DNA of 54,094 nucleotides from Candidatus Rifleibacteriota bacterium (GTDB lineage: Bacteria > Muiribacteriota > Ozemobacteria > Ozemobacterales > Ozemobacteraceae), in contig JAAYVD010000089.1 of the NCBI GenBank assembly GCA_012517355.1, positions 1 to 54,094 of the forward strand, in the 5' to 3' direction. Every line of letters starts with the position of its first letter. Position 1 is the first letter of the stretch. The notes beneath the pieces are model-generated. The model made no database searches and was not told the origin of the DNA. It was given only the letters and a program-made list of their open reading frames with translations. A program made the position numbers and the translations under genes. This document shows positions 35,094-48,056 of the stretch, piece after piece.

Positions 35094-35122
35094 TTGACTT
35101 GCCGGGAGGCGGGGGGTACAAT
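35094..35122 (+). promoter_or_regulatory. Promoter of the radical SAM-aminotransferase operon
   Basis: TTGACT at 35094-35099, 17-bp spacer, TACAAT at 35117-35122. The leader is about 27 bases. This is the only promoter seen for the three coupled genes to 42059. Confidence 0.8.
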
Positions 35123-35155
35123 TCCCTTCCCAACCTCTTACCAACGGGGAATGCC

Positions 35156-36481
35156 GTGCACGTCGCCCTCGTCGATCCCACGTTCCGCCACCAGGGCAGG
35201 TTGCTGAAGCTCCGGCGGGTGGGCTATTTCCCCCTCACCCTGCCGCGCCTGGCCGCCTGCTTCCCCGCGGGAACGAAGATCACCCTGGTCTACGAGAAAT
35301 GCCAGGAGATCGATACCCAGGCCCCTTACGACCTGGTGCTCTTCACCACGATGGGGTCGAACCTGGTGCGGGCCGAGGAGTTGTCGGCCGTCTTCCGGCA
35401 ACGCGGCATCCCGACCGTGGTCGGGGGATACTCGGTGGCCCCCTTCCTCGACCGGTGCCGCCGGAACTTCGACGCCGTCGCGCTGGGAGACGGGGAGGAA
35501 ATCATCCCCCGCCTGCTCGCCGACCTGGCCGGGGGGCGGCTGGCCTCCGTCTACCAGGGGGTCACCGCCGACCTCACCCGGTTGCCGCCGCCCCGGTTCG
35601 ACCTGGTGCCCCCCGGCGTGATGGGCGATATCGCCCCCGTCGAGACCTCGCGCGGGTGTCCGAACGCCTGCGATTTCTGCGCGGTGACCGCCTTCTACGG
35701 CGGCCGGCAGCACCGGGCGGACGTGCCGACGGTGCTGCGCGACGTGCGGGCGGTGCGCGAAACCCTGGGACGCCGTCTGGTGTATTTCACCGACCCCAAT
35801 TTCGCCGCCGACATGGAGCACGCCAAGGCCGTCCTGCGGGGATTGCAGGCCCTGGACGCGGGGGTGGGCTGGCTGGCCAGCGTCGACATCCGGGCGCTGC
35901 AGGACGAGGAGTTCCTGCGCCTGGCCCGGGCTTCGGGCTGTTTCAGCCTGCAGGTCGGGTTCGAGACGCTGCACCCGGAACAGCTGCGCGCCGTCAACAA
36001 GGGGTTCGCCGCCCGCGCCGACTACGGGGAGGCCATCGGCCGCGCCCGGGCCCACGGCGTGCCGGTGGTGGCGCTGATGATGCTCGGCTTCGACACCGAC
36101 ACCCCGGCCACGTTCGGGCAGGTGCTGCGGTTCCTGGAAACCTCGCGCCTGCCGCTCGCCGTGCTCCATCCGGTCATTCCCATCCCTGGAACCCCTCTGT
36201 ATGACCGGCTTGCGCGGGAAGGCCGTCTGACCGGCCTCGACCCCGCCGAGACCGACGGGCTGCACCTGCATTTCGTCCCCCGCCATTTCGCCCCCGACGC
36301 GTTTCTCGAGGGCTTCTGGCGGCTGAACCGCCGCTTGTTCGGCCTGCGTTCGGTGGTGCGGCGGTTTCTGCACCCCGACACGTTCAGAAACCCGCTCGCC
36401 TACGCCCTCCTGCTGTTCACCAACCTGTTCCTGGCCGGGCCGCTGGTGCGGCGCCGCCTGCCGCTGGGGATGTACGAATGA
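35156..36481 (+). CDS. B12-binding-like domain radical SAM protein
   Basis: 441 residues. Residues 1-145 have a Rossmann-like B12-binding fold (VALVDPTFR, YDLVLFTTM, IPTVVGGYSVAP, GDGEEIIPRLL) without the DxHxxG cobalamin-ligand motif. The radical SAM core follows with C168-x3-C172-x2-C175 (CPNACDFC) and typical ETSRGC, FTDPNFAAD and VGFETLHPEQLRAVNKG segments. The C-terminal part carries a hydrophobic region. BchE-like members do methylations, cyclisations or ring openings; the exact reaction is unknown. The GTG at 35156 gives the best fit to the family start, with CGGGGA upstream. The stop overlaps the next start by ATGA. Confidence 0.88.
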   Translation: MHVALVDPTFRHQGRLLKLRRVGYFPLTLPRLAACFPAGTKITLVYEKCQEIDTQAPYDLVLFTTMGSNLVRAEELSAVFRQRGIPTVVGGYSVAPFLDRCRRNFDAVALGDGEEIIPRLLADLAGGRLASVYQGVTADLTRLPPPRFDLVPPGVMGDIAPVETSRGCPNACDFCAVTAFYGGRQHRADVPTVLRDVRAVRETLGRRLVYFTDPNFAADMEHAKAVLRGLQALDAGVGWLASVDIRALQDEEFLRLARASGCFSLQVGFETLHPEQLRAVNKGFAARADYGEAIGRARAHGVPVVALMMLGFDTDTPATFGQVLRFLETSRLPLAVLHPVIPIPGTPLYDRLAREGRLTGLDPAETDGLHLHFVPRHFAPDAFLEGFWRLNRRLFGLRSVVRRFLHPDTFRNPLAYALLLFTNLFLAGPLVRRRLPLGMYE

Positions 36482-39027
36482 CCGCCGCCTTCCGCGACCC
36501 GCGCACGCTGCCCTCGCCGGTCCTCGCCGACCTCGGAGCGGTGGGGGGGAAGGCCGCCAACCTGCTGGCGCTGCGCGAACTGGGCCTTCCCGTCCCCCCC
36601 TTCGTGGTCTGGCCCGTGACCGTCTGGCGCACGTTCGTCGCCCACTGCGGGTGGCCCGCCAACGGCGGGCCCGCCGACCTCGACGACGACGAGGCGGAAC
36701 GGCGGCGCAACGCCCTGCTGACCCGCCCCTTCCCCGACGGCCTGCGCTCCGATCTGCGCGAAGTGCTGGCGCGGTTCGGCAACCGGCCGTTCTGCGTGCG
36801 GTCCTCGGGCACCTTCGAGGATCTGCCGCACCTGTCATTCGCCGGCCTCTACGACTCCATCCTCGACATCGGCACCGAAGAAGCGCTGGAGCAGGCGGTT
36901 CGCGCCTGCTGGGCCTCGGTCTACGGCCCGCGGGTGCGGCAATACTGCCGACATCACGGCATCCCCCTGGCCAAGGCGGGGCTGGCGGTCATCTTCCAGG
37001 AGTTCGTGCCCGGCGACCATTCCGGGGTCGCGTTCACCGTCCATCCGGTGACCGGCCGGCAGAACCACCTGTTGCTCGAGTACTGCGAGGGCACTGGCGA
37101 CAAGCTGGTGTCCGGCCAGGTCACCCCGCAGCAGGCGGTCTGGGACCACAAAGCGGACCGGCTGGTCGAGGGTCGGCTGCCGCCCGGCTTCCCGGCCGGG
37201 GCGATGCGCGGGTTCCGGCGGATCCATCGCGAGTTCGGGCAACCGCAGGATATCGAGTGGGTGTTGGCGGGGGGGCGGCTCTGGATTCTGCAGACGCGCG
37301 CCATCACCAGGATTGCGGTCGAACCGTCGTTCGGGTGCTGGACCACCGCGGACTTCCGCGACGGCGGGGTGGCGAGCGGGGTGGTGACGCCGATGATGTG
37401 GTCGCTCTACCAGTATATCTGGCAGTTCGCCATGCCACGGTATTTCGAGATCATCAAGATCCTCGACCCCGAGCGCAAGACCGGCGTGACCTGGGGCGAC
37501 GTCTTCTTCGGCCGCCCCTTCTGGAACCTCGGCGAGGTCGTGCGGCCGCTGCTGAAGATCCCCGGGTTTGACGAGCGGAACTTCTTTTCCGACCTGGGCA
37601 TCCAGACCGTCCCCGACTACCGTTTCCGCCGGGTGCCGACCACGCCCGACAACGCCGTCCGCATCGTGCCCACCGTGCTCGCGCTGGAGAGATACTACGA
37701 CTACCGCATCCGCGCCAACCGCGCGTTCCGGCAGGCCTTTCCCGAACTGGTCAGGCCCTTCACCGAAGCCGCCCCCGACACCCTGGATCCCGACGCCTTC
37801 GCCGCGAGGTTCCGCGACCTGATCACCGGGCTGTATTTCCGCACCGAGACCACCTACTTCCTGACCATCTACAACAGCAGCAACGCCAAGCTCGACTTCA
37901 AGATCTGGCTCGACACCCTCAACGCGCGCGGGCACGACATCTCCTACATCAAGCTGATTTCCGGGCTGCTGCGCATGAAACACCTCGCCCCGATGAAGGC
38001 CCTGGCCGACCTGGCCCGCCGCTACCGCGCCATTCCCGGGCTGGCCGACCTGCTGCTGCGCACCCCGTCCACCGAGGTCGACCGGGTCCTGGCGGGCCAC
38101 CCGCAGGGCGGGGCCATCCGGGCCGCGATGGACGACTTCCTGGCCCGTCACGGCTACCACAGCCCCCGCGAGCTCGACATCTCCGTCCCCCGTTGGGAGG
38201 AGGACCGGGAGCCGGTCTGGCGCCTGCTCAAGACCTGGCTGCGCGACACCGACCCCGAGAGTGCGGTGGCCCATGAGAAACGGCAGCACGAGCTGTACCG
38301 GGAAGAGGTCGACCGGGTCCGGGCCCTCTACGACACCCCCGGGCACCGGCTGTTCCCCATCGAACGGCTGTTCTTCTTCCGCACCCTGCTGCGCACCCGC
38401 AAATACTGCTGGTGGCGCGAGGAGATCCGCGACTACTCGTCGCGGGTCTACGCCATCATCCGGCGGTTCCTGGTGGCGGCCGAGCGCCGCCTCGGCCTGC
38501 CCGCCGGCTCGGTCTGCTGGCTGACCTGGCAGCAGGTGCTCGCCGCCCTGGAGGGAACCCTGGCCCGGAAGGCGCTTCCCGGGCTGATCGAGGCGGCCGC
38601 CGAGGAGGCGGCCATGTACCGGTTCTTCACCAACCCCGACGAACTGGGCACCGGCTTCCTCAGCCCCGCCGACAAGCAGGCCCCGGCGGCCGACGGGCAG
38701 CGGTGGCAGGGGCTGGGCTGCTCCCCCGGCGTGGTCGAGGGGCCGGTGCGGGTGTTGCGGTCGATCGACGAGGTCGACACCCTGCAACGGGGCGAGATCC
38801 TGGTGACGCCCTTCACTGACCCCGGCTGGACCCCCGCTTTCCACCTGCTCGGGGGGGTCGTCACCGAGACCGGCGGCATCCTGTCCCATGCCGCCGTCAT
38901 CTCGCGGGAATACGGCATCCCGGCCGTGCTCAACCTGAACGGCGCCACCACCCGCTTCACCACCGGGCAACGCGTCCGCCTCGACGGCACCCGCGGCACC
39001 GTCGAGTTGATCGGGAAGGCCCGATGA
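36478..39027 (+). CDS. PEP synthase/rifampin-phosphotransferase-like enzyme
   Basis: 849 residues with the three-part layout of rifampin phosphotransferases and PEP synthases. It has an N-terminal ATP-grasp (GGKAANL, RSSGTFEDLPHLSFAG, FTVHPVTG, DIEWVLAGG), a large central domain (about 300-730) that differs from PEP synthase and would hold the acceptor, and a C-terminal swivelling domain with phospho-His H804 in GGILSHAAV. Length is close to known RPH proteins. Chemistry expected: ATP gives a phospho-His and transfers the phosphate to an acceptor. In this operon an acceptor made by the radical SAM or aminotransferase partner is more likely than rifampin, but this is inference. Coupled to both neighbours by ATGA overlaps. 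Confidence 0.88.
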   Translation: MTAAFRDPRTLPSPVLADLGAVGGKAANLLALRELGLPVPPFVVWPVTVWRTFVAHCGWPANGGPADLDDDEAERRRNALLTRPFPDGLRSDLREVLARFGNRPFCVRSSGTFEDLPHLSFAGLYDSILDIGTEEALEQAVRACWASVYGPRVRQYCRHHGIPLAKAGLAVIFQEFVPGDHSGVAFTVHPVTGRQNHLLLEYCEGTGDKLVSGQVTPQQAVWDHKADRLVEGRLPPGFPAGAMRGFRRIHREFGQPQDIEWVLAGGRLWILQTRAITRIAVEPSFGCWTTADFRDGGVASGVVTPMMWSLYQYIWQFAMPRYFEIIKILDPERKTGVTWGDVFFGRPFWNLGEVVRPLLKIPGFDERNFFSDLGIQTVPDYRFRRVPTTPDNAVRIVPTVLALERYYDYRIRANRAFRQAFPELVRPFTEAAPDTLDPDAFAARFRDLITGLYFRTETTYFLTIYNSSNAKLDFKIWLDTLNARGHDISYIKLISGLLRMKHLAPMKALADLARRYRAIPGLADLLLRTPSTEVDRVLAGHPQGGAIRAAMDDFLARHGYHSPRELDISVPRWEEDREPVWRLLKTWLRDTDPESAVAHEKRQHELYREEVDRVRALYDTPGHRLFPIERLFFFRTLLRTRKYCWWREEIRDYSSRVYAIIRRFLVAAERRLGLPAGSVCWLTWQQVLAALEGTLARKALPGLIEAAAEEAAMYRFFTNPDELGTGFLSPADKQAPAADGQRWQGLGCSPGVVEGPVRVLRSIDEVDTLQRGEILVTPFTDPGWTPAFHLLGGVVTETGGILSHAAVISREYGIPAVLNLNGATTRFTTGQRVRLDGTRGTVELIGKAR

Positions 39028-42000
39028 GCCCCACCCCTCCCCGCAAGCGCCTGCCCTCCCCCCAGGAAGAACCCGCCCCTCCCGCGGGCTCCCCCACCCC
39101 ACCGGGCACTCCTTCCCCAAGCGCCCACGGTCGGACGACCAGAGCCGGAAAGGGGGCCTCCCCCCCCCCCGCTACTGACCAGGGGCTGGCCCCCGCGGCA
39201 CTCTACGAGCGTTTCTGCAAGCCCGGGCTGGGGGCCATGCTGACCGCGTTCGGCCTCGACGTCCCCTACGACAAGGCCCTGGGCGATGTCCTGTCCTGGC
39301 GCGACCCGGCGGGGAAGACCCGCAAGGTCCTCGACCTGGTCGGCTCCTTCGGGGCCACCCTGCTTGGCCACAACCACCCCCGGTTCCGCGCCGTCCTCCA
39401 GGGTGCCCTGCGGGCCTGCCCGCCGGTCCTCGTCCAGGCCAGCGTCCGGACCGGCGCCGCCCGCCTCGCCGCCCGCCTGAACGCGGTCGCCCGCGACCGG
39501 TTGGGGGGCGATTACCTCGTCCACCTGTTCAACAGCGGGTCCGAAGCGGTGGAGGCCGCCCTCAAGCATCTGCTGCTGATCAAGCGGGCGCGGCTCACCA
39601 CCCTCCGCGAGGAGATCCTGACCGCCGCCGCCAACCTCCTCCGGCAGCACACCGCGGCGGCCGGCCCGGCGGTCTTTCGCTCGCTGTCCGAGTTCCTCGG
39701 GGAGAAGGTCCGCGACCCGGCCGGCGTGCTCGATGCCCTCGACCGGTACAACTCGCGGCTTCTTGACATCGCCTGCCCCGTGCTGGCCCTGGAGGGGGCC
39801 TATCACGGCAAGACCTTCGGCGCCCTCGGGCTGACCCACAACGCGCGCTACCGCGACCCCTTCCCCCGGCAGGTGTTCCCCGTCACCTTCCTGCCCCCCG
39901 ACCCCGAGGCCCTCCGCCGGGCCATCGCCCAGGCCCGCCTCGAACCCCTGCGGCTGGCCCGGGGCCCCCGCGGCGGCCTGACCTTCGAGCCGGTGCCGGT
40001 CCCCGCCCACCTCGGCCTGTTCGTCGAGCCGGTCCTCGGCGAGGGCGGGGCCCGGCCGCTGCCCGAGGGGTTCCTCGCCGCCGCGACCGGCATCTGCCGC
40101 GCGGAGGGGCTTCCCGTCGTGGCCGACGAGATCCAGACCGGCCTCGGCCGCACCGGCACCGTCTTCGCCTGGGAGTCTTCCGGCGCCCCCGCCCCCGACT
40201 TCGTCCTGCTCTCCAAGTTCCTCGGGGCCGGGCTGGTCAAGGTGTCGGCGGTGCTCTCCCAGCGCGCCGTCTCGGAGGACGAGTTCGGGATCATCCACAC
40301 GTCCACCTACGCCGAGGACGAGCTGTCCAGCCGGGTCGCCCTCGCCGTGCTCGACGCCCTCTCGGAGAACGACGGCGCCCTTCTGGCCGCCGTCCGCCAG
40401 GCAGGGGAGGCGTGGCTGACCCGACTGCGGGCGCTGCAGGCCGAGTTTCCCGACGTGATCCGCGAGGTGCGCGGCCGGGGGCTGCTGCTCGGCGTCGAGT
40501 TCCACGACCTGCGCGAGAGCGGCAGCAACCTCCTGCGCTTCCTCGCCGGGCAGGGCGATCTCGGCTACCTGTTCGCCTCCTACCTCCTGCACGCGCACGG
40601 GCTGCGGGTGGCCCCCACCCTCAACGCCCTGCGCACCATCCGCATCGAGCCGTCGGTCCTGGTCCCCGCGCGCGAGATGGACCGCACCGTGCGCGGGTTC
40701 GCCGCCCTGTGCCGCATCCTGCGCCAGCGCGACACCTTCCACCTGGTCAAGTTCATCCTGCCGGAATTCCGCTCCGGCCGGCCCGGCCGCGAGACGGTCC
40801 TGGACTGCCGGCGCGAGCCGGACGTGGTCATGCAGCCGGAACCGCGGGCCCCCGAAAAGGTGGCCTTCCTCGGCCATTTCATCGACCCCGGGTTCCTCGC
40901 CCGCCATGAGCCCGCCCTGGCGCGGTTCACGCCCGCCCAGCTCGAAAGCCTCGTCGAGCGCACCTGGAAGTACATCGACCCCTGCGCCTTCGCCTCCCGC
41001 GACATCGCCTCGCCCCTCGGCCCGGTGGTCAACTTCACCTTCGTCGGCCTGTCCGTCTCCTCCGCCATCCTGCTGCGGCACCTCCGCGATCGCGACCTGG
41101 GGCCGGTCCGCGGCCTGATCCGGCAGGCGGTCGAAGCCGCCCGGGCCGCCGGGGCCCGCCTGGTCGGGTTCGGCCAGTTCACCTCGATCCTCACCCGCAA
41201 CTGCCAGGAGCTCTGCGTGCCCGGGGTCGCCTTCACCTCGGGCAACACCCTCACCGCCGGCATGGCCCTGCGGGCCCTCGAACAGGAGGTGCAGCGCCGC
41301 GGCCTCGCCTGGCCCACCCTGCGACTGGCCGTCGTCGGGGCCGGCGGAAACATCGGGTCGACCTTCGCCCGCCTGCTCGCCGACCGGGCCGGCCGACTCG
41401 TCCTGATCGGGGGCACCGCGTCCGACTCCCGCCGCCGCCTCGAGGAGACCCGCGACACCATCCTGGCCGAGCAGGCAGCCCGCGTCCAGGCCGGGTCGGC
41501 CGACACCCCCATCGCGGCCTTCCTGCACCGGACGATCGGCCCCAGGGAAATCGACCGGATCCGGGCCCAGGCCAAGGAGGCCGATGAAAGCACCTTCGGC
41601 GCCCGCCTGCAAGAGGCCCTGGCCGGCCGGCGGGACGCCGACCCGCCCATCGAAATCGCCGACCTCGGGGCCCTGCCGACCTGCCCGGTCGTCATGGCGG
41701 CCACCAACGCCACCCGGCCCTTCATCGGACCGGCCGACCTCGCCCCCGAGACCGTCGTCTGCGATGTCAGCCTGCCGGCCGCCCTCACCCCCGAAGCCGT
41801 CCGGCGGCCGGGGGTCGAGGTGTTCAAGGGCGGCATCGTCGCCCTGCCCAACCACGAGGTGCTGAACATCGGGGCCCTTCCCCTCGACCCGGGCCTGGTC
41901 TACGCCTGCATGGCCGAGACGATCCTGCTGGGCCTCGAGCGCCGCTGGGAGGATTTCTCGATCGGACCGCTCGACAAGCAGCGGGTGCTCGAGATCCTGG

Positions 42001-42059
42001 CCCTGGCAGACAAGCACAACTTCCGCCTGGCACGCCTGAAGGTCGACGTGTCCCTCTAG
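39024..42059 (+). CDS. Class III aminotransferase fused to acyl-ACP reductase-like domain
   Basis: 1011 residues in two enzymes. Residues 1-55 are a Pro-rich tail interrupted by an 11-C tract. About 60-590: class III PLP aminotransferase with FNSGSEAVEAA, GAYHGKTFGALG, DEIQTGLGRTG and the PLP Lys398 in LLSKFLGAG. About 615-1005: a domain collinear with cyanobacterial long-chain acyl-ACP reductase, with GFGQFTSIL, TSGNTLTAGMAL, nucleotide motif VVGAGGNIG (about 770) and YACMAETILLGLE, whose C962 aligns with catalytic Cys294 of that enzyme. A reductase making an aldehyde joined to an aminotransferase suggests acyl-thioester to aldehyde to amine in one protein. The start overlaps the upstream stop by ATGA. 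Substrate unproven. Confidence 0.85.
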   Translation: MSPTPPRKRLPSPQEEPAPPAGSPTPPGTPSPSAHGRTTRAGKGASPPPATDQGLAPAALYERFCKPGLGAMLTAFGLDVPYDKALGDVLSWRDPAGKTRKVLDLVGSFGATLLGHNHPRFRAVLQGALRACPPVLVQASVRTGAARLAARLNAVARDRLGGDYLVHLFNSGSEAVEAALKHLLLIKRARLTTLREEILTAAANLLRQHTAAAGPAVFRSLSEFLGEKVRDPAGVLDALDRYNSRLLDIACPVLALEGAYHGKTFGALGLTHNARYRDPFPRQVFPVTFLPPDPEALRRAIAQARLEPLRLARGPRGGLTFEPVPVPAHLGLFVEPVLGEGGARPLPEGFLAAATGICRAEGLPVVADEIQTGLGRTGTVFAWESSGAPAPDFVLLSKFLGAGLVKVSAVLSQRAVSEDEFGIIHTSTYAEDELSSRVALAVLDALSENDGALLAAVRQAGEAWLTRLRALQAEFPDVIREVRGRGLLLGVEFHDLRESGSNLLRFLAGQGDLGYLFASYLLHAHGLRVAPTLNALRTIRIEPSVLVPAREMDRTVRGFAALCRILRQRDTFHLVKFILPEFRSGRPGRETVLDCRREPDVVMQPEPRAPEKVAFLGHFIDPGFLARHEPALARFTPAQLESLVERTWKYIDPCAFASRDIASPLGPVVNFTFVGLSVSSAILLRHLRDRDLGPVRGLIRQAVEAARAAGARLVGFGQFTSILTRNCQELCVPGVAFTSGNTLTAGMALRALEQEVQRRGLAWPTLRLAVVGAGGNIGSTFARLLADRAGRLVLIGGTASDSRRRLEETRDTILAEQAARVQAGSADTPIAAFLHRTIGPREIDRIRAQAKEADESTFGARLQEALAGRRDADPPIEIADLGALPTCPVVMAATNATRPFIGPADLAPETVVCDVSLPAALTPEAVRRPGVEVFKGGIVALPNHEVLNIGALPLDPGLVYACMAETILLGLERRWEDFSIGPLDKQRVLEILALADKHNFRLARLKVDVSL
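39160..39170 (+). repeat. Run of 11 C within the fusion gene
   Basis: An uninterrupted 11-C tract lies at codons 46-49 of the aminotransferase-reductase gene. Single-base slippage would shift the frame before the folded part begins. The tract is one of the two longest C-runs seen in the window (the other, 20501-20511, is intergenic). Confidence 0.85.
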
Positions 42060-42066
42060 CCCGGGA

Positions 42067-42819
42067 CTACCCTTCCTCTCCCCCCTCTTGGGGTTTCCTG
42101 GTACATTTCAGGGTCGGGTACAGGTGCCGGGCGCAGTCGGGACACAGCCCGTGGGTGAAATCGGCTTCGCTGTGCTCCCGGATGAAGGCCTCGAGGATCT
42201 GCCAGTATCCCTGGTCGGTGCGGACCTTCTTGCACTTGGCGCAAATGGGGATCACGCCGCGCAACGCCTTGATCTGGGCATGGGCGGTCTGCAGGTCGGC
42301 CCGGCCCTGGTCCCGTTGTTGCTCGGCCTGCTTCTGGGCGGTGACATCCTCGACCACGGCCACAAAATGCGTGATCTTCCCCGTGGCATCGCTCAGAGGG
42401 AAATACGAGGCCCGCACCCCCCTGACCTTGCCGTCGGCCCCAAACGCGATGTTCTCGAACGAACAGGCCTGACCCTCGAGGGCGGAACGCATGAACCGTT
42501 CGGCGGCATCGAAAGAGGCGGGGGCGATGATGTCCTGCACCCGCCGGCCAATGATGTTCTTCCTGGGAAGCCGGTACCAATCGGCGTAGGCCTGGTTCAC
42601 CCAGATGAATCGCAAGCGGGAATCCATGAGGGTGATCAAGGTGGGAAGGCGGTCGAGAATGGATTCCCGTTCTTCCAGCAACGCTTGGGTTTCGCGAAGG
42701 CGCTGGGACAACCGGCGGATCTCGCCTTGGAGCTTCCGCACGATGGCGGGGGATTGGACTCCGGCCGACCGGGATGGCGACGCGCCGGATGGGCCGGAAC
42801 GTTTCTTCTTGCCGTCCAT
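42067..42819 (-). CDS. PAS-domain sensor with C-terminal four-Cys zinc module
   Basis: 250 residues. A basic N-terminus, a coiled coil (about 25-55: EIRRLSQRLRETQALLEE), one PAS/PAC domain (about 55-165), a short helix, and a C-terminal module starting PICAKCKK and ending with HGLCPDCARHLYP, giving two CxxC pairs. This PAS-linked Cys4 module is common in bacterial signalling proteins without an attached output, and may bind zinc. AAGGAGG lies 5 bases before ATG 42819. It ends 7 bases from the convergent fusion gene. It starts divergently from the secreted gene at 43024. Likely a soluble sensor or adaptor; partner unknown. Confidence 0.88.
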   Translation of the reverse strand: MDGKKKRSGPSGASPSRSAGVQSPAIVRKLQGEIRRLSQRLRETQALLEERESILDRLPTLITLMDSRLRFIWVNQAYADWYRLPRKNIIGRRVQDIIAPASFDAAERFMRSALEGQACSFENIAFGADGKVRGVRASYFPLSDATGKITHFVAVVEDVTAQKQAEQQRDQGRADLQTAHAQIKALRGVIPICAKCKKVRTDQGYWQILEAFIREHSEADFTHGLCPDCARHLYPTLKCTRKPQEGGEEG

Positions 42820-43023: not shown

Positions 43024-44061
43024 ATGAGGAAACTGGCTTTTGGATTGCTTCTGTGTCTGCTCGTCGCCCCGGCCGCCCTGGCCGTCACCGCCGACGAGAT
43101 CATCGCCCACTTTGAGGAATCGCAGAACTGGGTGAAATCCGGGATGGCCGCTTTCAAGGTCCTGAAGCAGACCTCCGACCCACGGATCGCCGACATGTAC
43201 GACTTCGTGACCGACAAATCCTACGATTACGAAGGGTTGATCATCGACGGTTCGGAATACCTGAACGCCGACCGGGGCCCTCTCGACCCTTTGCTGAACG
43301 TCCTGAAGGACGGCGTTCTCGCGGTCATCCACAAGCTGGCCACCGATGATCACAAGAAGCTGTTCAAACCCACCTGGGTGGGCTACCACACCCCGGACGA
43401 CAAGAAGGTCTCCAACTGGTTCTGCCTCATCATGGGCGACCACACCAAGACCTATCTCACCCGGGTCGATCCTCGCGCCAAGCTCGACGAGATCGGAACC
43501 GATCCTCTCCAGATGAACGTCTTCGACAAGCGCTGGTTCACCTTCTCGATCGCCAAGGACCTCGGCTCCAAGGTCGTGCTGAAGGTCTCCCCCAAGGCGG
43601 GCGCCCCCGCCAACTTCCGCGAGGCCCTGATCGAGATGGGCCGCCTCCAGATCGGGGAGGCGGTCACCTGGTACATCACCAAGATCAGCGGCGTCCTCAA
43701 CACCGGCGCCAACGGCGTCACCGAGTTCGGTGATTTCCGGGTCGCGGCCGCCGTCCCCGGCCGGCAGTACATCGGCTGGTCGAACGACGGCAAGCAACTG
43801 GGAACCGTCCCCGTCTGGGGAATCGGCACCGCGCTGCAGCAGAAGATCGCCCCCGGCCAGAAGCTGTTCGTGTTCGCCACCCAGCTCAAGACCACCACCT
43901 ACCAGAACTCCCGCGAGGTCAAGGACTACGAGGTCCGCCTGGTGACCGGCATCCAGCGGATCCACATCAACCCGCCCCTCGACGTGGTCGCCCAGTACAT
44001 CCAGCCCAAGCGGCTCGAAACCCTCACCAAGGTCGTGCGCAAGATCGTCGCCCAGCACTGA
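43024..44061 (+). CDS. Secreted protein of unknown function (345 aa)
   Basis: A Sec signal peptide (MRKLAFGLLLCLLVAPAALA, probable cut after residue 20) precedes a 325-residue mature protein. It is alpha/beta with no Cys in the mature part except one near residue 133, and the C-terminus ends in helical LETLTKVVRKIVAQH. I do not recognise a family. The strong promoter, GGAGG ribosome-binding site and immediate terminator suggest a well-expressed, monocistronic periplasmic or secreted protein. It faces the PAS/zinc sensor across a 204-base divergent region with a candidate operator, so control by that sensor is possible but untested. Confidence 0.8.
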   Translation: MRKLAFGLLLCLLVAPAALAVTADEIIAHFEESQNWVKSGMAAFKVLKQTSDPRIADMYDFVTDKSYDYEGLIIDGSEYLNADRGPLDPLLNVLKDGVLAVIHKLATDDHKKLFKPTWVGYHTPDDKKVSNWFCLIMGDHTKTYLTRVDPRAKLDEIGTDPLQMNVFDKRWFTFSIAKDLGSKVVLKVSPKAGAPANFREALIEMGRLQIGEAVTWYITKISGVLNTGANGVTEFGDFRVAAAVPGRQYIGWSNDGKQLGTVPVWGIGTALQQKIAPGQKLFVFATQLKTTTYQNSREVKDYEVRLVTGIQRIHINPPLDVVAQYIQPKRLETLTKVVRKIVAQH

Positions 44062-45573: not shown

Positions 45574-45612
45574 GGCGGCTGCCGGCGCCCTGCGGAAAGG
45601 GCTTGCTCGCCG
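45574..45612 (+). repeat. Short dispersed repeat, copy 1
   Basis: GCTGCCGGCGCC and GGGCTTGCTCGCC, 10 bases apart, also occur in that order at 50071-50133 with a longer spacer. This copy lies just upstream of the MMPL transporter start. Confidence 0.5.
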
Positions 45613-45638
45613 ACGGGCGGCCGGATACCCTGGAACGC

Positions 45639-48056
45639 ATGGCGGAGCAGGGGCGGTTTTCCGTGATGGAGGCCTGGTTCGGGTGGGTCCTCCGGAACCG
45701 GACCACCGTGTTGGGCTGTGGGCTGCTGCTGCTCGTCGTCAGCGGGTTCGGGCTGCGCACGCTCGACATTGATTTCGCGATCGAAAGCTTCTTCTCCCAC
45801 GAGAACCAGCACCGCCAGGCATTCGCCGACTACACCCGGCGGTTCGGCCGTGACGACGACGCGATCCTGGTGCTCTGCCAGGCTCCCGAGGTCCTGACCT
45901 TCCCCTTCCTGGAGGCCTACGACCGCCTCGCCTCGGACCTGGCCCGGCTGCCGATGCTGCGCCGGGTCGATTCCCTGCTCGACGTACCGGTAGCGTATGC
46001 GCCGGACGACATGGAGATCCGCATCCGGCCGCTCCGGGAGCGCCTCTTCCCCGCCGGCCGGCCCGACCCCGCCGCCCTGGCCACCTTCGCGGCCGACCTC
46101 TCCCTCGACGGTCCCTTTCTCATGAATTATGTCAACCCAAAGGAGGGAACCGCCCTGCTCGTCCTCCGGCTGGCCGAAGACTGGTCGGACAACCGGGGCC
46201 GACAGGAGGCCGTGCAACGCCTGCGGGCCCACCTCGCCTCCCTCCCCCACCCCGACACCGCCCCCCTCACCCACCCCGACAGCACCTCCCCCACAAGCAT
46301 GCCCGTGGCGCCCGCCGGCTTCCCCACCATCACCCTCCCGGGCATCGCTACCCTCACCCTCGCCGGCATGCCCGTGGCCCGCGCCGACGGCATGGTCATG
46401 ATCCAGAACGACCAACGGCGGCTCCTCCCCCTCTCGCTGGCCGTGACCCTCACCGTGCTCTTCTTTGTCCTGAACGGCTTTCGGGACATCGTCCTCGTCG
46501 TCCTGACCACCGCCTTCACCCTGGCCTACACCTTTGGCCTGATGGGCTGGCTCGGCTGGAAGTTCTCCTTCCTCACCTCCGTCGCGCCCGTCATCCTCGT
46601 CACCACCGGCACCACCTATTGCAGCCATCCTCTCGTCCGCCTGGGGAAGGTCGGGCCCCACCCCGACCCTGCCCGCCAGGCCCAGGCCTTCGCCGAGGTG
46701 CTCCGGCCCCTCTCCCAATGCGCGATCACCACCATCGTCGGCTTCGGCTCCCTGCTGACCATCCCCGTGACCCTCGTCCACCAGTTCGCATTCGTCTCCG
46801 CCCTCGGCGTCGCCATCGCCTTCGCCGTGGCCATGACCCTCCTGCCCGCCCTGGTTTCCTGGATCCGCCCGCCGCGCCCGCCGGCGCCCCAGCCCCGTCA
46901 CGACCTCCTCCACCGGCTCCTGAACCGCCTCCACCCTTTCGTCCGCCGCCACCCAGGAGGAATCCTCGTGACCCTTTCCGCCGTCGTCCTCGTCGGGGGC
47001 CTCGCCGCCACCCGCCTGCAGATCCGGGCCTTCGTCTTCGACGATTTCCGGCCCGACTCGCCCCTGATGAAGACCATCCGGCAAGCGGAAAAGGCCTGTC
47101 ATGGCCTTCTTCCGCTGGCGGTCCTGGTCGAGGCCGCGCCCGGGGAAACCGTCCTGCGGCACCGGTATCTCTCGAAAGTGGCCTCCATCACCGCCTTTCT
47201 GCGCACCATGCCCGAGGTGGGAAAGGTCGACAGCCCAACCGATTTCCTCATGGGGGTCTGGCGGCTGCTCCAGCCGGAAGCGGGCCGGACCGCCCCTTTC
47301 CCACCCGACGACTCGGCTCTCGCCGCCCTCTTCCGGCTCGTCCTGTCGGCCGGCAACCTCGGCGCCGACCAGGACTTCATCGCCCGCGACCTGGGCGCCC
47401 TGCAGATCAAAATCCGGCTGTTCGACGTGGAATCGGGACGGGCCGCGGCATTCATCGACCGGGTCAGGGAACGGCTGGCGGTTTTCGCGGATGCCTCGAC
47501 CACCCTGCGGCTGACCGGCACCACCGTCATGATCCAGGAAACCTACCGCCAGACCATCACGAGTTTCTTGACCAGCCTGGGTTTCGTCATCGCCGCCACG
47601 TTCCTGGTGGTCGTCCTTTTCCACCGCGATCCCCGGCTGGTCTGGTGGGCCATGGCCGGCAACCTCGGCCCCCTGGTCTGCGTCTTCGGGTTCATGGCCA
47701 CCCTCGACGTGCCGATCAAGATCTCCACCATCACCATCTTCGGGATCGCCCTCGGCCTGGCCGTCGACGACACCATCCATTTCCTGACCGCCTTCCGCGC
47801 CCAGAAGGCCCGTGGCCGGTCCAACCGGGAGGCGGCGGGGCGGGCCATCATCCGGACCGGCCGCGGCATGGTCGTCTCCTCGCTGGCCCTGTTCGCCGGC
47901 TTTCTGGTCCTGCTCTTCTCGGAGTTCGAAGCCCAGTATCTGATCGGCCTGATGCTCTGTTTCAGCATCACCGCCGCCCTCGTCTTCGACCTGGCCTTCA
48001 CCCCCGCCGGCGTGGCCGTGTGGGGACCCCGCGACAACCGCCCCCCGTCACCCTGA
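45639..48056 (+). CDS. RND/MMPL-family exporter
   Basis: About 805 residues with 12 expected helices: one at the start, a large extracytoplasmic loop, five helices, a central cytoplasmic segment near 410-440, then a second set. The sterol-sensing/MMPL signatures are clear (FGLMGWLGWKFSFLTSVAP, GFGSLLTIPV, and FGIALGLAVDDTIHFLTAFR late). Members export lipids, hopanoids or peptides by proton drive. The loop before TM2 has a Pro/Thr/His-rich insertion with the repeated segment MPVA (about residues 205-240). Start ATG 45639 is chosen; 45666 (MEAWFGW) is also possible. It converges with the methyltransferase 3 bases away. Confidence 0.88.
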   Translation: MAEQGRFSVMEAWFGWVLRNRTTVLGCGLLLLVVSGFGLRTLDIDFAIESFFSHENQHRQAFADYTRRFGRDDDAILVLCQAPEVLTFPFLEAYDRLASDLARLPMLRRVDSLLDVPVAYAPDDMEIRIRPLRERLFPAGRPDPAALATFAADLSLDGPFLMNYVNPKEGTALLVLRLAEDWSDNRGRQEAVQRLRAHLASLPHPDTAPLTHPDSTSPTSMPVAPAGFPTITLPGIATLTLAGMPVARADGMVMIQNDQRRLLPLSLAVTLTVLFFVLNGFRDIVLVVLTTAFTLAYTFGLMGWLGWKFSFLTSVAPVILVTTGTTYCSHPLVRLGKVGPHPDPARQAQAFAEVLRPLSQCAITTIVGFGSLLTIPVTLVHQFAFVSALGVAIAFAVAMTLLPALVSWIRPPRPPAPQPRHDLLHRLLNRLHPFVRRHPGGILVTLSAVVLVGGLAATRLQIRAFVFDDFRPDSPLMKTIRQAEKACHGLLPLAVLVEAAPGETVLRHRYLSKVASITAFLRTMPEVGKVDSPTDFLMGVWRLLQPEAGRTAPFPPDDSALAALFRLVLSAGNLGADQDFIARDLGALQIKIRLFDVESGRAAAFIDRVRERLAVFADASTTLRLTGTTVMIQETYRQTITSFLTSLGFVIAATFLVVVLFHRDPRLVWWAMAGNLGPLVCVFGFMATLDVPIKISTITIFGIALGLAVDDTIHFLTAFRAQKARGRSNREAAGRAIIRTGRGMVVSSLALFAGFLVLLFSEFEAQYLIGLMLCFSITAALVFDLAFTPAGVAVWGPRDNRPPSP

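Follow-up and report, generated by a model that had tools for sequence, protein, structure and literature searches.

A radical SAM, PPDK-like and aminotransferase-reductase gene trio in Candidatus Ozemobacter: candidate core of an exported aminolipid-type pathway

PtTamH, from the tambjamine YP1 pathway of Pseudoalteromonas tunicata, is a fusion of a transaminase and an AAR-type thioester reductase. It reduces C12-ACP with NADH and then transaminates the resulting aldehyde with glutamate (PMC9594044). The MAP aminotransferase/reductase PigE of prodigiosin biosynthesis (PDB 4ppm) harbors the same two activities. The prodiginine ligases PigC and RedH, as well as the rifampin phosphotransferase RPH, consist of ATP-grasp, central, and phospho-His domains without a PEP barrel. 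AprD4 is a radical SAM diol dehydratase that is not known to use cobalamin.

Relatives of all of these enzymes are encoded together in the window, i.e., the whole stretch of 54,094 nucleotides that was analyzed. The window corresponds to contig C169 in a genome of 7.1 Mb (completeness 96%) from Candidatus Ozemobacter, Riflebacteria. Its nearest named relative is the congeneric Candidatus Ozemobacter sibiricus BY5, with the three trio proteins being 72–78% identical. We propose that the trio encodes the central enzymes for making an aminolipid-type product that is exported, a reading to which we assign a probability of about 0.55. No paper describing a pathway with this trio, or a lipid made in this way, was found in the literature searched, in agreement with the original prediction, which had recognized no described pathway for it.

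Gene layout of the locus

The features of the locus are as follows.

35094..35122, + strand: sigma-70-type promoter, TTGACT-17-TACAAT (10/12 match)
35156..36481, + strand: radical SAM protein P0001 (gene 1), 441 aa (PF04055, E=9e-17)
36478..39027, + strand: PPDK-like/RPH-like protein P0002 (gene 2, "PPDKL1"), 849 aa (PF01326, PF00391)
39024..42059, + strand: aminotransferase-reductase fusion P0003 (gene 3, "TATR"), 1011 aa (Aminotran_3)
42067..42819, − strand: PAS-domain gene between the trio and the putative export genes (PF08448; start codon 42817-42819)
43024..44061, + strand: 345-aa protein with a hydrophobic signal-like N-terminus, no known family (orthologs of 55–77% in L059, L061, and L062)
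45603..48056, + strand: MMPL/RND-type transporter, up to 817 aa (PF03176, E=2e-18)

The original prediction of one good promoter, two ATGA overlaps, and three long genes holds in each part. The region contains two promoter-grade sites, where shuffled sequences would lead one to expect 0.2, and both hexamers of the trio promoter are nearly conserved in the sister species Ca. O. sibiricus (TTGACT/TAGAAT); the −10 element is also conserved in a third species. The ATGA overlaps lie at 36478 and 39024, and the codon-position GC of all three long reading frames is consistent with coding. Position 35094 is the −35 box rather than the start of a gene, and the start codon of P0001 is likely GTG.

The three enzymes

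The N-terminal half of P0003 (residues about 61–575) is a class III aminotransferase (Aminotran_3, E=4e-56) that matches CrmG and PigE. The C-terminal half (about 610–1011) is an acyl-ACP/thioester reductase that matches PigE and the cyanobacterial acyl-ACP reductases. The PLP lysine K398 (40215-40217) and D368 of the DE.Q motif align with CrmG and all homologs, a GAGGNIG motif (GxxGxxG) spans residues 772–778, and the catalytic C962 (41907-41909) aligns with the cysteine of PigE and cyanobacterial AAR. The lysine, the NAD motif, and the cysteine are invariant across the eight aligned homologs. P0003 thus has the features of the TamH type, namely, an N-terminal aminotransferase with the PLP lysine and a C-terminal AAR-like domain with GxxGxxG and cysteine, and it shares both these residues and the domain order with PtTamH.

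However, there are several differences from the known fusions. In contrast to PtTamH, P0003 is not accompanied by an adjacent TamA-like acyl-loading gene or bipyrrole genes, its partner belongs to a different clade than PigC, and radical SAM and MMPL genes are added. Both domains are homologous to those of PigE (E=5e-89 to NF053554), yet their order is opposite and the score of 300 bits falls short of the cut-off of 850. The identification of gene 3 as an aminotransferase-acyl reductase fusion is therefore correct, although such a fusion is not unprecedented, being known from TamH and PigE. The proposed conversion of an acyl thioester into an amine has an experimental precedent in PtTamH (PMC9594044), and by analogy P0003 would catalyze the same conversion of acyl-ACP. 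As candidates for a TamA-like ANL-ACP partner, the AMP-binding neighbors of the fusion in L108, L115, and L137 were rejected, as they have no evident carrier motif or domain.

P0002 comprises an ATP-grasp domain (PPDK_N, PF01326, E=4e-50), a central domain, and a phospho-His domain (PEP-utilizers, PF00391, E=3e-23). Its residues of interest are K25, R108, and H804 (38887-38889). H804 aligns with the catalytic histidine of RPH, which bears out the assignment of gene 2 to the enzymes that transfer phosphate through histidine. With these residues and those of P0003 retained, the loss of catalytic residues that had been considered as a way in which the prediction could fail is not observed. P0002 has no Pfam match to PEP-utilizers_C, the PEP/pyruvate-binding barrel, and stops after the His domain. 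A PEP synthase or PPDK was consequently rejected, and the domain architecture is that of PigC, RedH, and RPH.

In contrast to these enzymes, P0002 belongs to a clade with lipid-gene neighborhoods and scores far below every family cut-off: 302 bits for RedH, 263 for PigC, and 263 for RPH against NCBIfam cut-offs of 1350, 1300, and 999 bits, respectively, none of which is reached. In a quick maximum-likelihood tree, of which only the clade separation is used on account of its long branches, P0002 falls in its own 21-row clade, PPDKL1 (SH-aLRT 98). Outside this clade fall a second one (PPDKL2), a Chitinimonas PigC homolog (L152, long branch), and the PEP synthases. Judged from sequence, P0002 would be a phosphotransferase of the RPH/PigC architecture, with its reaction being either a phosphorylation or a ligation.

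It is conceivable, though doubtful, that P0002 is a PigC/TamQ-like ligase that uses ATP to activate a partner with a carbonyl or carboxyl group and then joins this partner to the amine from gene 3, yielding a tambjamine-like alkaloid or an amide. In the tambjamine pathway, the same type of fusion works alongside a step that condenses the amine with an aldehyde (PMC9594044), the scores of P0002 for RedH and PigC are as high as that for RPH, and in Chitinimonas (L116) such a fusion is joined to a 920-bit PigC homolog (NF052631) and PigJ-like genes. However, the clade of P0002 is distinct from the Chitinimonas PigC, the PigC and RedH cut-offs are far from being reached, and PPDKL1 genes are accompanied by lipid head-group genes rather than bipyrrole genes. 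PigJ, the MBC bipyrrole gene that was searched for, has a best match of 176 bits in the genome against a cut-off of 900. Membership in the prodigiosin/tambjamine pathways was rejected on the basis of the cut-offs, the clade, and the missing PigJ, while the working resemblance of the fusion remains.

P0001 is composed of an N-terminal Rossmann domain with a fold resembling the B12-binding type, a radical SAM domain with the CxxxCxxC motif C168/C172/C175 (35657-35680), and conserved C-terminal helices. Its orthologs in the four other trio loci are 51–72% identical and keep the motif. The solved fold nearest to its AF2 model (pLDDT 84) is that of AprD4 (6fd2; TM about 0.76, E=8e-23), followed by the cobalamin enzymes TsrM, CysS, and MgmA. 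In spite of the similar fold, AprD4 is only 22% identical and differs in substrate and genomic context. PF02310 (B12-binding) has no Pfam match in P0001 at E<0.1, although a relative from Flavobacteriaceae shows a weak match. Of the radical SAM enzyme with a B12-like domain that had been predicted, the radical SAM assignment and the B12-domain-type fold stand, but without a Pfam B12-binding match and with AprD4 as the nearest structure, so a role of cobalamin would be conjectural.

P0001 is a lineage-specific radical SAM enzyme. Outside the trio genomes, gene 1 is missing beside most pairs of genes 2 and 3. Relatives of P0001 are found near a fusion gene in another Riflebacteria family (f7; L048) and in a Flavobacteriaceae MAG (L120). 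At both of these loci the fusion is divergent and stands with a GNAT-like protein and two radical SAM genes, joined by a P450 in the MAG. The window genome itself (G000) encodes about seven P0001 paralogs of 28–36% identity on contigs C75, C45, C10, C168, and C72, some of them in tandem.

Conservation of the unit and lipid-gene context

The order of the trio is conserved in five genomes (G000, G001, G003, G007, and G014), so the concern that the three families might never co-occur elsewhere does not apply. In four of the five, the 345-aa protein and the MMPL transporter are encoded downstream; the MMPL orthologs in L059, L061, and L062 are 41–65% identical and occupy the corresponding position, and the orthologs of the 345-aa protein there likewise stand downstream of the trio. 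The conserved neighborhood therefore includes these two genes besides the trio, and the extent of the unit is larger than the three genes originally delimited. The PAS-domain gene is not seen between the trio and the 345-aa gene in L059, L061, or L062 and is probably outside the pathway. The AlphaFold model of the 345-aa protein is poor (pLDDT 43) and was discarded, so a role as lipid carrier would be speculative. G007 does not have the export pair directly downstream of the trio, where a HAD hydrolase, an SDR, an epimerase-like protein, a methyltransferase, and a KS-AT-KR polyketide synthase are encoded.

A third Ozemobacter species, G002, retains a remnant of the five-gene set at one place (L046, G002:C134, 1284-4340): residues 1–21 of the radical SAM protein, residues 55–236 of the fusion, a portion of the 345-aa gene, and pieces of MMPL. 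Gene 2 was not found at this site. All of the set appears to have degenerated together, an assembly fault being a less likely explanation.

Genes 2 and 3 are coupled far more widely. Among 79 loci retrieved with only the fusion as query, PPDKL1 is adjacent to or near the fusion in 20. By record titles, the pair occurs in about eight phyla (Riflebacteria, Myxococcota/Deltaproteobacteria, Desulfobacteraceae, Pseudomonadota, Spirochaetota, Planctomycetota, Cyanobacteria, and Actinomycetota); these loci are mostly MAGs with shared ancestry and do not count as independent observations. In Nocardia amikacinitolerans (L137:8315-14272), PPDKL1 and the aminotransferase-reductase form a single 1986-aa polypeptide. 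A FAAL-like gene and a PPDKL2 gene lie near this natural fusion. Strong matches to the fusion (>1100 bits) and to PPDKL1 (>1000 bits, with all other PPDKL1 matches <490) occur in the identical 8 of 40 Riflebacteria genomes (Fisher 1.3e-8, a value that ignores shared ancestry). In one of the eight, G028, the two genes are on different contigs. Thus, the predicted operon is real and conserved, but its widely conserved core is genes 2 and 3, with the radical SAM gene being a lineage-specific addition.

Head-group genes (CarS-like, UbiA, DUF3419, PSD, or CDP-alcohol transferase) are present at 11 of the 20 PPDKL1 loci, whereas of 63 other fusion loci a single one has any (uncorrected Fisher 1e-7). 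DUF3419 corresponds to the BtaA family. CarS-type CDP-archaeol synthase acts on a phosphorylated lipid, and since CarS-like enzymes require such a substrate, a kinase role would be favored for PPDKL1. In the window, no head-group genes adjoin the trio. The about 375-aa GNAT-like neighbor may resemble bacterial ceramide synthases, a likeness for which no family or PDB match was found.

The window genome encodes DUF3419 and a second PPDK-like gene on contig C118, in a cluster that is also present in fusion-free genomes. A tight link between the trio and this cluster is weakened because DUF3419 occurs in 24 of the 40 Riflebacteria genomes, in contrast to 12 with any fusion match. The cluster (L055, G000:C118, 422-9539) is a second conserved Riflebacteria arrangement of PPDKL2, MMPL, DUF3419, a LolA-like protein, and a protein of about 430 aa. 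UbiA borders this cluster in several genomes (L195, L198, L199), and the arrangement looks like another undescribed lipid route.

Proposed pathway and competing readings

In the proposed pathway, P0003 would use NAD(P)H to reduce acyl-ACP, via a thioester at C962, to the aldehyde, which it would then transaminate via K398-PLP to a long-chain amine, as has been shown for PtTamH. P0002 would act next, on the amine or a derivative, by an ATP- and His804-dependent phosphotransfer; an RPH-like phosphorylation of a hydroxyl appears favored over a PigC-like ligation. P0001 may alter the chain or head by radical chemistry, e.g., through a dehydration, oxidation, or methylation. The product would then cross the inner membrane via the MMPL/RND-type transporter, which is the probable exporter, perhaps aided by the secreted 345-aa protein. 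The amino-lipid-like product of the original prediction is supported.

It is rather unlikely that the product is instead a secreted signal or antibiotic-like amine and not a structural membrane lipid. The closest tested relatives are antibiotic producers, a polyketide synthase follows the trio in G007, and the sporadic occurrence of the set (8 of 40 Riflebacteria genomes), with its seeming loss in one congener, suits an accessory metabolite; the MMPL, CDP-alcohol, and PS-decarboxylase-like genes in relatives, however, suit a membrane or envelope lipid. That the trio genes share no more than their transcription and act in different pathways is very improbable: the absence of the radical SAM gene beside most gene 2 and 3 pairs elsewhere and its several similar paralogs in the genome would agree with this, but the five-genome synteny with overlapping genes, the natural fusion of genes 2 and 3, the decay as a unit, and the radical SAM relatives close to fusions in a second Riflebacteria family and in a Flavobacteriaceae MAG argue against it.

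Beyond the preferred reading of an exported aminolipid-type product, it is tentatively suggested that genes 2 and 3 mark an undescribed class of bacterial phospho-aminolipids over about eight phyla. A fatty amine formed directly from acyl-ACP would replace the serine-derived base of sphingolipids, a PEP-synthase-like lipid kinase would phosphorylate it, and CDP-activation and archaeal-type head groups would follow, with Ozemobacter adding a radical SAM modification and MMPL export. An amine-forming fusion known from one antibiotic pathway is now tied to an apparent membrane-lipid route across many phyla. Should gene 2 encode a PEP-synthase-type lipid kinase, this would be new lipid-activation chemistry, and the natural gene 2–3 fusion and clean co-occurrence make the hypothesis testable with few proteins.

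The contig of L099 (G009:C27) carries the public title Candidatus Methylomirabilis, yet it groups in the family of the window, and the title may be misassigned. In Pseudomonas and Xenorhabdus (L067-L082, L090, and L095), fusion genes without a PPDKL1 partner stand amid ketosynthase- and SDR-like genes, and the Pseudomonas clusters also contain MMPL.
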